A stretch of 35,006 nucleotides of DNA from an uncultured Flavobacteriales bacterium (GTDB lineage Bacteria > Bacteroidota > Bacteroidia > Flavobacteriales_D > Sanyastnellaceae). Made by a program: the position numbers and the translations under genes. Shown here piece after piece: positions 9,696 to 22,943 of the stretch. Where the stretch lies: contig CALJFZ010000048.1 in the NCBI GenBank assembly GCA_938074325.1, positions 1 through 35,006 on the forward strand, in the 5' to 3' direction. Below the pieces are notes generated by a model. The model was not told the DNA's origin and searched no databases. It was given only the letters and a program-made list of their open reading frames with translations. How positions within the stretch are numbered: the first letter of the stretch is position 1; each line of letters starts with the position of its first letter.

Positions 9696-11561
9696 ATGCC
9701 CACCACTTTCACCCTCACCCGGACGCTGGCCTGCACGTTTTGCCTGATTGCCTTGCTGGCTTCGAACGCCTCAGGCCAAATTGGTTTCCCCCCAGAACAA
9801 CAGCCGACCAAAGGCGAAAAGGTGGACGAGCAAACCCAAATGCAAAACCGCATGCGGGAGAAGGATGAAATGAAAAAGCAGATGGCGGAGCGCGGCGAGA
9901 AAACACCGCCCAAAAAACCCGCCCAGCCCGTGCAACGCGCCCCGCGCCCCATTCCTCAGGAACCAGAACCCAAGACAAATTTGGGGGAACGCCCTGCACT
10001 GGTGGTGGGAATCACCGTGGACCAGATGCGCATGGATTACCTATATCGGTTTTGGGATGCATTTGGGGACGGTGGATTTAAGCGCATGATCGAGGACGGA
10101 TTTGTGTGTGGCGACCACCACTTTGGATACGCACCAACTTACACCGGCCCGGGACACGCGTCCATTTACACAGGCACCACCCCGCGCACGCACGGCATCA
10201 TCGGCAACGATTGGTACGACCGGTCCAGCGGTGCTTCGGTCTATTGCGCCAGCGACGCCGACGTGCAAACGGTAGGCATCGACCCGGCCAATACAGCGGG
10301 ACACATGTCACCACACCGCATGGGGGTCACGACCATCGGAGACGAATTGAAACTGGCAACGGGCATGCAGTCCAAAGTCATTGGTGTGAGCATCAAAGAC
10401 CGCGGGGCCATCTTGCCTGCGGGGCATCTGGCAGACGGCGCTTACTGGTTCTATGGCAAGGACGAAGGCAAATTCATCACCAGCACCCGGTACATGGACG
10501 AACTGCCCAAATGGGCTGAAAAGTGGAACAAAGGCGGTTGGGCAAAACGGTACATGAAGCAACCTTGGGCCAACACCCTGTCCGCCGAACAACTTTCCAT
10601 CCAAACCGAGGACAACACTCCCTACGAACGCCCCTTCAAAGGCGATAACAACCCCACCTACCCCTACGATTTGATGGCGCTGAGCGAAGCCAATGGCGGG
10701 TTCGACATCCTCAAAGCAACGCCGGCGGGGAACACCTTGGTCGTCGACTTCGCTTTGGCGGCCGTCGCCGGGGAGCAGTTGGGCAAGGATGAATTCACCG
10801 ACCTCCTAGCAGTGAGCTTCTCTTCCACGGACTACGTGGGCCACCAATTTGGTGTGCACGCGTGGGAAACCATGGACATCTATGTGCGCCTTGACCAGCA
10901 ACTCGAGCGGTTTTTCCGTGCCTTGGACGGTGCCGTTGGTGTAGGCGAGTGGATGTGTTGGCTGACGGCCGACCACGGCGCAGCAACTGTTCCCTCACTG
11001 GCTCAAGACGCAGGCATCCCGGCGGATTACTGGAAGCCCGGCAACCTCATCGACGACGTCAAGGCCGACCTCAATGCCGCTTTCGGAGAAGCGGAGTGGG
11101 TCCTGAACTACTCCAACGACCAATTCTTCCTCAACCGTCCCCTCATCCTGGACCGCGGCCTGGAAATCGAAGCCTTTGAAAACCGAATCCGCAATCGAGC
11201 ACTGACCTACGAAGGCGTGCATACCGTCGTGACCGGTACCGACCTCGTGCGGGGCAACGCCTATGCCGATGATGTTGTGGAACGCGTGCGCAACGGATGG
11301 TCACCGGCCGCGTCCGGCGACGTCATCGTCATCCCGAAGCCGGGCTGGATTCAATACAGCCGCAGCGGAACCACACACGGTTCGCCGTTTGCCTACGACA
11401 CGCACGTTCCGTTGCTGTTTTATGGTTGGCACGTCCCAGCCGGCATCACCTACGAGCGCACCCACATTCGCGACATTGCCCCTACGGTATCGGCGTTGAT
11501 CCACAGCCCTTTGCCCAACGCCTCCACCGGTCGGCCCATCGAAGACTTGTTGGAGGAATGA
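9696..11561 (+). CDS. pafA: PafA-type alkaline phosphatase
   Basis: A 621-residue exported phosphatase of the type I phosphodiesterase/alkaline phosphatase superfamily that hydrolyses phosphate monoesters. A signal peptide ends near residue 27. The nucleophile is probably T150 in TYTGPGH, with N171 (GIIGNDW) and K234/R236 (SIKDRG). The spacing of these four residues agrees with T79, N100, K162 and R164 of Elizabethkingia PafA. Metal-binding segments include STDYVGHQFG, TADHGA and THGSPFAYDTHVP. Between signal peptide and catalytic domain lies an unusual 65-70 residue charged and Pro-rich linker (about 30-97), which largely explains the extra length over the 546-residue relative. It overlaps the M61 peptidase gene by ATGA. 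A weak TACCTTTA box precedes it. Confidence 0.9.
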   Translation: MPTTFTLTRTLACTFCLIALLASNASGQIGFPPEQQPTKGEKVDEQTQMQNRMREKDEMKKQMAERGEKTPPKKPAQPVQRAPRPIPQEPEPKTNLGERPALVVGITVDQMRMDYLYRFWDAFGDGGFKRMIEDGFVCGDHHFGYAPTYTGPGHASIYTGTTPRTHGIIGNDWYDRSSGASVYCASDADVQTVGIDPANTAGHMSPHRMGVTTIGDELKLATGMQSKVIGVSIKDRGAILPAGHLADGAYWFYGKDEGKFITSTRYMDELPKWAEKWNKGGWAKRYMKQPWANTLSAEQLSIQTEDNTPYERPFKGDNNPTYPYDLMALSEANGGFDILKATPAGNTLVVDFALAAVAGEQLGKDEFTDLLAVSFSSTDYVGHQFGVHAWETMDIYVRLDQQLERFFRALDGAVGVGEWMCWLTADHGAATVPSLAQDAGIPADYWKPGNLIDDVKADLNAAFGEAEWVLNYSNDQFFLNRPLILDRGLEIEAFENRIRNRALTYEGVHTVVTGTDLVRGNAYADDVVERVRNGWSPAASGDVIVIPKPGWIQYSRSGTTHGSPFAYDTHVPLLFYGWHVPAGITYERTHIRDIAPTVSALIHSPLPNASTGRPIEDLLEE

Positions 11562-16766: not shown

Positions 16767-16817
16767 TGTTAAGCTAATGTTACCCGAGTGTTAATGGATT
16801 TAACACAGGCATAACAC
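16767..16817. promoter_or_regulatory. Pho-box-like array of 11-bp-phased TGTTAA/TTAACA repeats
   Basis: Three direct repeats TGTTAA, TGTTAC, TGTTAA start at 16767, 16778 and 16789, exactly 11 bases apart. Two copies in the opposite orientation (TAACAC at 16801 and 16812) are also 11 apart. The middle forms a perfect inverted repeat GTGTTAA-N5-TTAACAC (16788-16806). Read as TTAACA-N5-ATAACA, the downstream pair fits the TT(A/T/C)ACA-N5 direct-repeat box of PhoP in Bacillus, and 11-bp phasing is also the PhoB arrangement. It lies 57 bases before the PiT-like gene. Binding by an OmpR/PhoB-family regulator is inferred. Confidence 0.6.
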
Positions 16818-16873
16818 CTCATCCCGCGTAGAAAATTGATTCTCAAGGGACTTTTGCAGCACTATCGCTTGAC

Positions 16874-17896
16874 ATGACAGAACTCTTTACCATCGTCGGA
16901 TTTACCCTTGCGGGCTTTTCCGTCATCGCCAACGACAGCGTCCAGACCCTCGGGACTTGGATTGCATCGAACCGAGAAAAATTCAAGTGGACCACCCTGT
17001 GGGCTGCGGCTTCCACTGTTTTGATTTTCACCATCGTTTACGGTTGGTATTCCGGTGGCGGGGACATCTCCTACGGTCGTCTCACCAAGATCCCGTACAT
17101 CGAACCGCAGTGGTACCACGCTGTAGCTCCGTTGGCGTTGGTTTTGTTGACGCGACGTGGTATTCCTGTATCGACTTCGTTCCTCGTACTGTCTGCGTTT
17201 GCATCGACGTTCGTCCTGGAAAAAATGCTCATGAAAAGCATCATGGGCTATGGTCTTGCAGCGATGGTGGCCTACGTTCTATGGCTCATTATTTCGCGGT
17301 TCGTAAACGAAAAAGAAGACGTCAGTCCGGGATCGAAGAAATTCTGGCGCGCCTTCCAATGGCTGAGCACCTCCTTCCTCTGGTACACCTGGCTTTCGCA
17401 TGACGTCGCAAACATCGCGGTGTTCTTGCCCCGTCAGCTGACGGTGGTTCAGTTGATCATCGTCATTGCATTCTTCGTGGCTGGATTGGCCTACATCTTC
17501 TACAAGCAAGGCGGGGCCATCCAACAAATAGTGATGGATAAGCAGAGTACGAAGTACGTACGTTCTGCGACCATGATCGACCTGGTGTATGCCTTCCTCC
17601 TCCTGTATTTCAAGGAGCTCAACAACATCCCCATGTCGACAACGTGGGTGTTTGTTGGCCTGCTTTGCGGCCGAGAATTGGCTTTGAATACTGGGCTGAC
17701 CAAAAAGGGCAACCTCAAATCCATCTTCCCGATTGTTGCGAAAGATTTCTTGAAATTGATCGTGGGCCTTTTGGTGAGCGTGAGCATTGTATTGGCCATC
17801 CACTACGGCACCGACCAAGAAGAACTTGCCGCCCCAGCAGCAGCACAAACCGAGTTACCTGCAGCGACCGACGCTGCTGCTACCAACCCTGAGTGA
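16874..17896 (+). CDS. Divergent PiT-like (inorganic phosphate transporter-like) membrane protein
   Basis: A 340-residue protein with about eight to nine membrane segments. It shows an internal two-fold pattern that matches the PiT phosphate-permease family. The first half has VIANDSVQTLGT (N20, D21) and IPVSTSFLVLSAF (98-110); the second half has LSHDVANIAVFLPR (H176, D177) and IPMSTTWVFVGLLCG (252-266). In classical PiT proteins each half has a GANDVANA-like and a PVSTTH-like motif, here degenerate. It is shorter than E. coli PitA (about 500 residues). An Ala/Pro/Thr-rich tail (about 315-340) follows the last helix. Phosphate or a related anion is the inferred substrate. The Pho-box-like repeats upstream and the secreted-protein/TonB genes downstream support that. 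Family membership is a motif-level inference. Confidence 0.68.
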   Translation: MTELFTIVGFTLAGFSVIANDSVQTLGTWIASNREKFKWTTLWAAASTVLIFTIVYGWYSGGGDISYGRLTKIPYIEPQWYHAVAPLALVLLTRRGIPVSTSFLVLSAFASTFVLEKMLMKSIMGYGLAAMVAYVLWLIISRFVNEKEDVSPGSKKFWRAFQWLSTSFLWYTWLSHDVANIAVFLPRQLTVVQLIIVIAFFVAGLAYIFYKQGGAIQQIVMDKQSTKYVRSATMIDLVYAFLLLYFKELNNIPMSTTWVFVGLLCGRELALNTGLTKKGNLKSIFPIVAKDFLKLIVGLLVSVSIVLAIHYGTDQEELAAPAAAQTELPAATDAAATNPE

Positions 17897-17897
17897 G

Positions 17898-17914
17898 GTA
17901 ACATTTCTTTAACG
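17898..17914 (+). promoter_or_regulatory. Second Pho-box-like pair
   Basis: GTAACA (17898-17903), five bases, then TTAACG (17909-17914): half-sites 11 bases apart in the same orientation as TTAACA-N5-ATAACA before the PiT-like gene. It begins one base after the PiT-like stop and lies 70 bases before the next start, a distance similar to that of the first array (57 bases). Weaker than the first array on its own. Confidence 0.45.
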
Positions 17915-17984
17915 GTAAGGCAAAGTTTTGATTCAATCCTGCTCGAATCCACGCTCCAACTTTGCCCCACGAATAACCAAAAAG

Positions 17985-19772: not shown

Positions 19773-22700
19773 ATGAAAGCTTTCTTTTCTGCACTTTTTG
19801 TCGCCATGGCAATGGGCGTTGGCTTCAGCCAAGGCACCATCACAGGAACCGTGACGGACAAGGCCAACGGAGACATCCTCCTCGGCGCCACCGTCATGGT
19901 CGAACCTGGCGGTACCGGCGTAATGAGTGACTTCGATGGAAACTTCACCATCACAGGACTGGCGCCGGGCACGTACACCCTGACGGGCCGATTCATCGCA
20001 TACAATAGCGCAGAAAAAGTGGTGACCATCACGGGCAGCGAAACTGCGAACGTCAACTTTGAACTCGAATCCACCGTCGTCGCCATCGACGCTGAAGCCG
20101 TGGTCGAGGTGCGCCAAAACAAAGCGAGCGCCGTCTACATGGAAAACGTCAAGAAAAAAGAGACGTCCATGATCGACTACGTATCCTCGCAGGAGATCAA
20201 AAAGAACGGCGACAGCGATGTAAGCAGCGCTATCAAGCGTGTTAGTGGGGTCTACACCATTGGGAATTTCGTGGTAGTCCGCGGCTTGAGCGATCGATAC
20301 GTACGCACAGCCTTGAATGGGGCGGAAATCCCTTCCCTCGATCCGAAGCGCAGTTCCGTCTCCATGGACATCTTCCCGACGAACTTGGTCGACAACTTGG
20401 TCGTCGTCAAAACGCTGAATGCCAATTTGCCTTCGAACTATTCCGGAGCATACATCAACGTCATCACCAAGGATTTCCCGGACAGCTTCACCCTCAACTA
20501 CTCCACCTCCACCGGATTCAACACCAACGCAACCTTCAACGAGAATTTCTTGCAAAGCGAAGTTGGAAGCACGGCCATGTGGGGCTTTGACAACGGCACC
20601 TTGGACATTCCGGGGCTTGTGGACGGATCGGACATTCAAGACCCGCAGTACTCGAATTACTACGATGCGCTGGCGCTCGCTGGATTCGGCGATGAACTTG
20701 CCGGATTGGGCGTGAACTCAGCCGATGACATTGGAGCAGGCAGCGGCCAAACCTCCATCATCAACATCGTCAACGCGATCGACGAAATCGACAACCTCAG
20801 CCAGGTCAACAACGAATTCATGACGGCCATCCGGGAAGAGCAAAACCAATTGCTCTCCAGCCAGACGCAGGCATTTGGCAACACGTGGGAACCCGTCAAA
20901 GGCGCGCCGTCTTTGGACCTGTCGCAGAGCCTTTCGTTCGGTGACGTGGTCAAGGTGGGAGGCCGATCATTGGGCTACAACTTCGGTTTGCAGCACAAAA
21001 TCACCAACCGCATGTACCAGAACGGTTCCACCGGTCGCTTCTTGCTCACGGGCATTGAAACCGAGAAGAACGAACTCGATGTGCAGCGGCAATTCTCTGA
21101 TACCCGCGGCACCCAATCGGTTTACACTTCTGCACTGTTCAATTTGGGCTACAACATCAGCCCTACAAGCAAGCTCGGCTTCACCTACATGCCTACCATC
21201 TCAGGCATCAACGATGCGCGTTACCAAAACGGGATCAACCCCAGTGACGCAGTGGGCCTCGGTCAAGAACAGCGCCAGCAGCGTTACCTCGAGCGCAGCA
21301 TGAACATCTTCCAACTGCGTGGCACGCACGAGTTGAGCGAAAACGTCAACCACAAAATCACGTGGAGCGCGTCGTTCACCCGCGGCAAGCAAACGACGCC
21401 GGATTTGCGATTGTTCATCAACAGCTACGAAAGCCTACCGGGCGGATTGGTCTACAGCGACGCCTCGGGCAACGACATCACAGAGGATGCATTGGCTTTG
21501 ATTGCGGACGGGGAAGATTTGAACGAATACTACCCCGGCTACACGGTTGCGGAAACGAGTTCGGATGAGTTGACCTACAGCATTCAGGACAACCTCTACC
21601 CCTCGCCTACGCGTTTCTACCGCACCATGGACAACACGACGTTGGACCTCAAATTCAACTTCGAAAAGCCCATTGCTGAAGAGCTTGGACCGGAAAATAA
21701 ATTGGCCCTCGGACTTTCGATGGTGCAGCGAACACGCGACTATTCGGAAAACCGATTCAGCTTCGTTTCACAGGGGGTAGACTACATGGGCGATCCCACC
21801 GCTTACTTCAGCGCGGACAACATGCGCATCATCCCGGGCACGTCAAGCGGCGCGACGAACTACGTGTACTTGCGCGACGACACAGACATCCAGAACAGCT
21901 ACGAGGCCAGCCAAACGGTCCTCGGCGGCTACGCCATGGTCAACATCGATCCGCGTGAAAACGTGAAACTCAATGGCGGCTTGCGCGTGGAGGCGACGGA
22001 TATGCTGTTGGAAAGCGACAAGCTGTTGGATGAAGACCTGTTGCCCGAGTTGGAGCAAAACTTCCGCGGAACGTTGAACGTATTGGACGTGCTGCCATCG
22101 TTGAACATGACCGTGAAATTGGCCGAAGAGGACCTGAAGGTGACCCAGTACCGTTTCTCAGCAAGTCAGAGCGTTGCACGCCCCTTGTTCCGTGAGAAAG
22201 CACCCTTCTCTGTGTTTGACTTCGAAATCCAGGAGCAGCAAACGGGAAATACGGATTTGAATCGCACCAAGGTGCTCAACATCGATAACCGTTTTGAGGT
22301 CTTCCCCGGATTGCGTGAATTGGTCTCCTTGAGCTTGTTCTACAAGCATTTCACCGATCCGATTGAACAGGTGATCATCTCCACTGCTGCCAACACGGAG
22401 ATCACATGGAAAAACGTGGAAAGCGCTCAGTTGGGCGGGGTAGAATTTGAATTGAAGAAGAATTTGGGCTCACTCCGTGAATCGCTCGAAGCCTTCAACG
22501 TAGCCTTCAACGCAACATACATTCAGAGTGCCACCGCCATCGCTGAAGACGAACTGCTCGAAATCCGGGCGACGGATCCCGATCACTTGGATACGCGACC
22601 GATGTACGGTCAATCGCCTTACATCGTGAACGGAATCCTCAACTACGCCAATGATTCATTGGGGCTGTCCGTGAATGCGGGCTTCAATGTCAGTGGTCCG

Positions 22701-22943
22701 AAGTTGGTGCTCATTACGCCCGGCGGCACACCGGACGTTTATGACCAGCCGCGCGGTGCGTTGGATCTGAGCGTGACAAAAACCTTGGGTGAACGCTTTA
22801 CCCTCAAGGTGCAAGGCCGCAACTTGCTCGACCCCGAGTACCGTCAGTCCTACGTGTTCAAAGGAGAGGAATACACCTTCCAGAGCTTCACCATGGGACG
22901 AACGATATCGTTCGGGTTGTCGTACAATTTTGCCGAGGAGTAA
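19773..22943 (+). CDS. TonB-dependent outer-membrane receptor
   Basis: A 1056-residue outer-membrane receptor. It has a signal peptide (1-20), a carboxypeptidase-regulatory-like beta domain (about 22-105, GTITGTVTDKANGDILLGA), and a plug domain (about 125-250). The plug carries the motifs KRVSGVYTIGNFVVVRGLSDRY, split here, LNGAEIPSLDPKRSS and PTNLVDNLVV. A 22-strand-type barrel ends in TISFGLSYNF, with a terminal aromatic residue near the end as is usual for BAM substrates. It imports an unknown ligand with energy from TonB-ExbBD. No SusD-like lipoprotein follows; instead the upstream T9SS protein is the likely surface partner. The start at 19773 is set by the signal peptide. Co-regulation with the Pho-box-like genes is inferred, with a terminator in between. 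Confidence 0.93.
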   Translation: MKAFFSALFVAMAMGVGFSQGTITGTVTDKANGDILLGATVMVEPGGTGVMSDFDGNFTITGLAPGTYTLTGRFIAYNSAEKVVTITGSETANVNFELESTVVAIDAEAVVEVRQNKASAVYMENVKKKETSMIDYVSSQEIKKNGDSDVSSAIKRVSGVYTIGNFVVVRGLSDRYVRTALNGAEIPSLDPKRSSVSMDIFPTNLVDNLVVVKTLNANLPSNYSGAYINVITKDFPDSFTLNYSTSTGFNTNATFNENFLQSEVGSTAMWGFDNGTLDIPGLVDGSDIQDPQYSNYYDALALAGFGDELAGLGVNSADDIGAGSGQTSIINIVNAIDEIDNLSQVNNEFMTAIREEQNQLLSSQTQAFGNTWEPVKGAPSLDLSQSLSFGDVVKVGGRSLGYNFGLQHKITNRMYQNGSTGRFLLTGIETEKNELDVQRQFSDTRGTQSVYTSALFNLGYNISPTSKLGFTYMPTISGINDARYQNGINPSDAVGLGQEQRQQRYLERSMNIFQLRGTHELSENVNHKITWSASFTRGKQTTPDLRLFINSYESLPGGLVYSDASGNDITEDALALIADGEDLNEYYPGYTVAETSSDELTYSIQDNLYPSPTRFYRTMDNTTLDLKFNFEKPIAEELGPENKLALGLSMVQRTRDYSENRFSFVSQGVDYMGDPTAYFSADNMRIIPGTSSGATNYVYLRDDTDIQNSYEASQTVLGGYAMVNIDPRENVKLNGGLRVEATDMLLESDKLLDEDLLPELEQNFRGTLNVLDVLPSLNMTVKLAEEDLKVTQYRFSASQSVARPLFREKAPFSVFDFEIQEQQTGNTDLNRTKVLNIDNRFEVFPGLRELVSLSLFYKHFTDPIEQVIISTAANTEITWKNVESAQLGGVEFELKKNLGSLRESLEAFNVAFNATYIQSATAIAEDELLEIRATDPDHLDTRPMYGQSPYIVNGILNYANDSLGLSVNAGFNVSGPKLVLITPGGTPDVYDQPRGALDLSVTKTLGERFTLKVQGRNLLDPEYRQSYVFKGEEYTFQSFTMGRTISFGLSYNFAEE

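Follow-up and report, generated by a model that had tools for sequence, protein, structure and literature searches.

An array of five half-sites in a single 11-bp phase lies between a SecDF gene and a PiT-like phosphate transporter gene in the window, i.e. the whole 35,006-nt stretch analysed here (contig CALJFZ010000048.1, positions 1 to 35,006, assembly GCA_938074325.1) from an uncultured Flavobacteriales bacterium of the Sanyastnellaceae. Judged from sequence, the array is very probably a Pho box, to be bound by PhoB and to act as a switch for the PiT-like gene under low phosphate; a second box would do the same for a secreted protein and a TonB-dependent receptor. The half-sites, their phase, conservation, genomic association and promoter spacing are computational observations. 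The Pho box itself is of an already known type; what is new is the rule for the spacing, the head-on arrangement of half-sites and the occurrence of PhoBR with neither a detectable PhoU nor a clear PstS. Labels starting with L, G and C are our own handles for loci, genomes and contigs, and statements on papers cited by PMC number refer to the accessible part of their text.

Half-site arrays in the window

The array at 16767-16816 consists of three reversed half-sites (TGTTAA at 16767, TGTTAC at 16778 and TGTTAA at 16789) followed by two forward ones (TTAACA at 16800 and ATAACA at 16811). The sequence-only reading had given the first three exactly as they stand, and the 11-base step that it claimed within each orientation holds, also across the change of orientation. 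The oppositely oriented copies that it placed at 16801 and 16812 do exist, but their 6-mers start one base earlier, the claimed positions being those at which TAACAC starts. Its second pair before the next gene, GTAACA-N5-TTAACG, was found with half-sites at 17898 and 17909 (span 17898-17914), and is present with substitutions in L031, L032 and L038. With steps of 8-15 and one mismatch per half-site allowed, the array is the sole run of at least three half-sites in the window. Same-orientation pairs at steps of 9-13 number five, and the four at step 11 are the described pairs (Table 1).

Table 1. Candidate Pho boxes, putative promoter elements and genes in the window
Feature	Position	Strand	Remarks
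PafA alkaline phosphatase	9696-11561		some 5 kb upstream; NF042991 699.8, cut-off 650
Pho-box pair 1, reversed, GTAACATTAGCTTAACA on - strand	16767..16783	-	matrix rank 2 in window, 16.59
Pho-box pair 2, reversed, overlapping pair 1, TTAACACTCGGGTAACA on - strand	16778..16794	-	matrix rank 1, 20.52
Head-on junction TGTTAA-N5-TTAACA, reversed meets forward array, same 11-bp phase	16789..16805	.
Pho-box pair 3, forward, TTAACACAGGCATAACA	16800..16816	+	end 57 bp before PiT ATG; matrix rank 5, 11.42; placed as in homologues
Putative -7 promoter element GACTTTTG (TAnnTTTG, 5 of 6)	16849..16856	+	32 bp past box
PiT-like inorganic phosphate transporter, 340 aa	16874..17896	+	PF01384 E 4.4e-6, below cut-off
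Pho-box pair GTAACATTTCTTTAACG, directly 3' of PiT stop codon	17898..17914	+	end 70 bp before start of next gene; matrix rank 3, 16.29
Putative -7 element CAACTTTG (5 of 6)	17957..17964	+	42 bp past box
Protein with type IX secretion tail, 551 aa	17985..19640	+	signal peptide by eye; PF18962, TIGR04183
TonB-dependent receptor	19773..22943	+	perhaps same transcript as secreted protein

Conservation upstream of PiT-like genes

The label 'PiT-like' given in the sequence-only reading is plausible, as a profile of ten PiT homologues matches the solved phosphate transporter 6l85 with an E-value of 1.6e-8, although the protein reaches only 26.3 bits against Pfam PHO4 (cut-off 33.7) and has no NCBIfam match. 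Of the 114 family genomes, 65 match PiT; 30 loci were taken and, after dropping the truncated L056 and L057, 28 upstream regions were examined. A pair was counted when the best two-half-site TTNACA score was at least 9 of 10 at a given step. Conservation upstream of orthologues had been set beforehand as a test, and a step-11 pair was indeed found upstream of 23 of the 28 PiT homologues, a count which, like the other conservation counts, is inflated by related sequences. Other steps tried gave 0-5 of 28, a comparison that serves as the control for both the PiT and the phoB sets because TTNACA was settled on after viewing those upstream regions. After dereplication, the step-11 pair is present in 16 of 21 regions (shuffles: mean 0.65, maximum 3). 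When only upstream regions of close homologues with a forward best site of the matrix described below are considered, 21 in number, this site ends 56-73 bp before the start in 18. No pair lies upstream of L058 and L059, which are distant homologues.

With its 6-bp inverted arms and 5-bp spacer, the junction at 16789-16805 could also be read as a palindrome, TGTTAA-N5-TTAACA, that serves a one-component repressor as operator. We consider this highly improbable, since the head-on arrangement <<<>> (three reversed and two forward half-sites) occurs in only three of the 28 PiT upstream regions (G000, G059 and G070), i.e. besides the window in L031 and L032, the other 25 being without it. L051 and L052 have the arrangement >>>< (three forward, one reversed), and a plain direct pair is found in most of the others.

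The genes around PiT were compared as well. A SecDF gene before PiT and a secreted protein after it were observed in the window and in L147, L148, L153 and L154 (by eye unless a family match is named). In G063, phoB-phoR precede PiT and a phosphate-selective porin (Pfam) follows, while in G107 and G111 phoB-phoR precede it and an SBF-family transporter follows (an ACR3 arsenite pump by NCBIfam in G107, by Pfam only in G111). A porin also comes after PiT in G069 (Pfam), G066 and G091 (both by eye), and G054 has none of these neighbours. Since the neighbours differ between relatives, the box goes with PiT and not with one neighbourhood. The phoB-phoR-PiT adjacency occurs together with a pair before PiT in G063, in G107 and, with one base off, in G111. 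In genus g21, where PiT lies beside phoBR, the SBF-family transporter comes next (L149 5171-6289, ACR3 by NCBIfam; L150 5199-6212) and possibly expels arsenic entering via PiT.

phoB and other OmpR-type regulators

Three OmpR-type regulators were identified in the genome. The regulator on contig C15 is paired with a kinase. Among NCBIfam models, those for PhoB fit it best, with scores below their cut-offs (218 of 296 and 208 of 270). This PhoB candidate carries a PF00072 receiver and a PF00486 winged-helix domain, and a phoB orthologue (E 1e-60 or better) is present in 21 of the 22 genus genomes. A step-11 pair with a score of at least 9 was found in 16 of 20 genus upstream regions of phoB (L071 having been dropped, as its phoB starts at a contig end), followed by step 22 with 11 of 20, which represents a third half-site copy in phase, and by 0-6 for the remaining steps. 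Dereplicated, five of seven regions have the step-11 pair (shuffles: mean 0.14, maximum 1); L073, L074 and L075 are weak. Upstream of the organism's own phoB, three tandem half-sites in phase are found, GTCACA-N5-TTTACA-N5-CTAACA.

The presence of three such regulators raises the alternative that these half-sites are bound, and the genes controlled, by another OmpR-family protein, e.g. that of the C9 kinase-regulator pair, acting on its own or jointly with PhoB. A near-consensus pair, TTAACA-N5-GTCACA (L013 1501-1516; G000:C9:73849), is located 18 bp upstream of the C9 kinase ORF; this OmpR-type two-component system is also among the one-mismatch genome matches given below. The duck pathogen Riemerella anatipestifer belongs to the Flavobacteriales. 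The motif TTTAACA of its PhoP has been likened to E. coli ArcA (PMC9603813), making the half-site common to other OmpR-family regulators. Nevertheless, step-11 pairs precede phoB, PiT and pst genes, and in G063 and the two g21 genomes read PiT adjoins phoBR and not the C9 pair, so that we regard the involvement of another regulator as improbable and PhoB as the preferred binder.

pst genes and the Pst-PhoU sensor

The motif had also been expected upstream of pst and phoB homologues, which proved right for phoB and for part of the pst loci at class level, but not for PstS at order level. For the class-level set, 247 genomes were searched and PstC was matched in 110; from these, the 30 loci with the best scores were read, 29 of them from outside the own order and none from the own family. 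This set is the fairest test because the pattern was fixed before the loci were fetched. With upstream regions chosen mechanically, the better of two being counted and some not being true promoters, the step-11 pair (score of at least 9) was present in 14 of 30 loci, compared to 1-5 for other steps and a mean of 2.5 (maximum 7) for shuffles; about half of the loci are therefore without it. In the order-level PstS-family set (PBP_like_2), the step-11 pair was found in 3 of 30 regions and is not enriched (3 of 22 after dereplication; shuffles: mean 1.07, maximum 4). A large share of these order-level matches resemble lipoproteins encoded within other operons.

A canonical Pst-PhoU-controlled Pho system contains PhoU as well as PstS. 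E. coli has PstSCAB-PhoU, whereas none was found here: in the own genome, which is 88% complete, there is no PhoU, PstS or PstC match, so that no pstS or phoU gene was available there on which a box could be sought. PhoU was found in 0 of the 22 genus genomes, 11 of which are at least 90% complete, and the PstS family has no match in the 20 genus genomes listed; G055 has a weak match (E 2.6e-4) and G066 is outside this count. Given the lack of PhoU in the 22 genus genomes and of a clear PstS in the own genome, PhoR would therefore sense phosphate otherwise, and the PhoBR system apparently operates in the absence of the customary Pst-PhoU sensor.

A crude hydropathy scan of the own PhoR indicates two membrane helices, connected by only a few residues of loop, and Pfam recognises kinase domains only, with no PAS match. 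Among the kinases of relatives, that of G063 has one segment over the threshold and that of G111 four overlapping ones. It is conceivable, though in our view rather unlikely, that the genus senses phosphate starvation without PstSCAB-PhoU in the following way: a small PhoR, with two helices, almost no outer loop and no PAS match, would read phosphate through the regulon-controlled PiT, and the head-on <<<>> array would bring two PhoB filaments together at the PiT promoter, thereby sharpening the response. As regards such PiT-coupled sensing by PhoR, some relatives carry the PiT gene next to phoBR.

Genome-wide counts and matrix scan

Across the 2.15-Mb draft genome, exact TGTTA-N6-TGTTA has three matches, all inside the 16767-16816 array. 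With one mismatch, 25 matches were obtained, versus 82 for the pattern read backwards; the looser motif is therefore not enriched across the own genome, which counts against the sequence-only reading. This lack of enrichment would speak for chance repeats in AT-rich intergenic DNA. As an explanation of the array, chance is barely credible, given the conservation at one spacing and the far lower shuffles. In the 22 genus genomes, exact TTNACA-N5-TTNACA gave 101 matches versus 83 for the control, i.e. no genome-wide enrichment, and phoB sites make up 12 of the 101. The strict form TTAACA-N5-TTAACA was rejected as too strict, with 6 matches in 5 of the 22 genomes and 6 for the reversed control. 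The sequence TTCACAACGCATTGACA recurs exactly in 12 of the 22 genus genomes and is perhaps a conserved coding stretch.

Next, a matrix was built from 20 pst sites in 14 class-level loci. Run over the window, it places the described boxes at ranks 1, 2, 3 and 5, a verdict that is not independent because the TTNACA pattern had already served to select the sites. The top score of 20.52 is just above the maximum of 60 Markov windows (mean 12.9, maximum 19.88). Ranks 2 and 3 (16.59 and 16.29) fall inside the Markov range, and the forward pair (11.42) is under the Markov mean maximum of 12.9.

Spacing between box and promoter

The -7 consensus of Bacteroidota is TAnnTTTG. Matches to it (5 of 6 or better) were sought 12-55 bp past the best forward box in 70 dereplicated upstream regions (PiT 21, phoB 13, pst 15, secreted protein 21), leaving out regions with a best forward box under 9 (under 12 for pst). 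Of the 50 matches, 37 lie at 20/21, 31/32 or 42/43 bp and three at 53/54 bp, so that 40 of 50 are in two of 11 phases, a count which overstates independence because some of the regions share ancestry and not all starts of the secreted genes are correct. In 1000 mononucleotide shuffles, the same two phases received a mean of 3.4 and a maximum of 11 matches, and the best two adjacent phases a maximum of 13; the phase was chosen after a first look at the spacings, and many upstream regions are without a -7 match. Where a pst row has a match of at least 5, the best match falls in phase for L209, L212, L215, L217, L221, L222, L231 and L235, as opposed to L214, L216 and L234, where it is out of phase. 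The two putative promoters of the window, at 32 and 42 bp, fit the phases.

Three marks of a Pho box were thus found: direct repeats, about 6-7 bp long, that recur every 11 bp, a position upstream of phosphate-uptake and phoB genes (the order-level PstS set excepted) and a fixed spacing to a promoter element. The Pho-box reading, as put forward from the letters of the window, is supported by the pairs before PiT, phoB and part of the class-level pst genes, and by the phoB-phoR-PiT adjacency in relatives. We infer PhoB as the binder, activation as its effect, phosphate as the signal and co-transcription of the TonB receptor as follows. Phosphorylated PhoB of the C15 PhoBR system would bind TTNACA half-sites 11 bp apart in a head-to-tail manner and, sitting on the helical face of a -7 element (TAnnTTTG) 20/21, 31/32 or 42/43 bp downstream, would activate the promoter. 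Under phosphate limitation, the array would turn on PiT and the second box the secreted protein and the TonB receptor. Via the triple box, PhoB would also regulate its own gene.

Comparison with known Pho systems

The PhoP box of Bacillus subtilis consists of TT(A/T/C)ACA direct repeats 11 bp apart. The boxes described here are alike in the TTNACA half-site, the 11-bp direct repeats and the presence of several copies, but differ in having a Bacteroidota -7 element as partner and, in three clade genomes, a head-on array of five sites. The E. coli PHO box contains two 11-nt direct repeat units on which PhoB is bound head-to-tail, an arrangement shared here, and has CTGTCAT as its most conserved motif (PMC4415409).

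According to a DAP-seq study of R. anatipestifer PhoP, 583 peaks were obtained with TTTAACA as the most conserved nucleotides, a gel shift shows binding of the protein to DNA upstream of its operon, and the authors report induction in phosphate starvation (PMC9603813). It is thus an OmpR-type regulator of a related organism that reads this half-site, and no promoter-spacing rule was found in the accessible part of that paper (PMC9603813). In another study, a Riemerella mutant had pstS up 8-fold (PMC5399024), which makes the evidence for a phosphate role of PhoP mixed. PhoB of Bacteroides fragilis binds the pst promoter region, shifting a 512-bp fragment, and the phosphate/sulphate permease BF3715 is among the changed genes; the words 'consensus' and 'motif' are absent from the main text of this study (PMC3547664). 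The PHO regulon of Flavobacterium johnsoniae features a phoBR operon that comes with OprP, a TonB receptor and an outer-membrane lipoprotein, and PafA is called constitutive; the main text uses none of the terms 'Pho box', 'motif' and 'promoter' (PMC8115612). Pho boxes were predicted bioinformatically in plcP clusters of marine heterotrophs, with a Dokdonia strain included and other Bacteroidetes named, and no box sequence or spacing was found in the accessible text (PMC4796936). Within a literature search whose scope left most subscription papers outside, and for the accessible parts of its sources, no Bacteroidota Pho box with promoter spacing was found defined. The boxes described here provide Bacteroidota with a Pho box open to testing and with a rule for its distance from the type of promoter that the phylum uses, which could allow prediction of Pho regulons across this large group.

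Other genes in the window

No Pho box of PafA is among the 15 top matrix matches in the window; a PafA without a box fits the term 'constitutive' used of PafA in the accessible text of PMC8115612. The TonB receptor likewise has no box of its own among these 15 matches. Upstream of relatives of the secreted protein, a step-11 pair was found in 7 of 29 regions and 0-3 pairs at other steps tried, in a set where five or more of the 29 assigned starts, L170, L174, L176, L177 and L180 among them, fall within the gene. The AlphaFold model of the secreted protein is poor, with a mean pLDDT of 48.6, and a PDB profile search matched the secretion tail region only. Its relatives (L157-L205), at 38-87% identity, come from Bacteroidota and from records titled Zixiibacteriota, Calditrichaeota and Holophagae.
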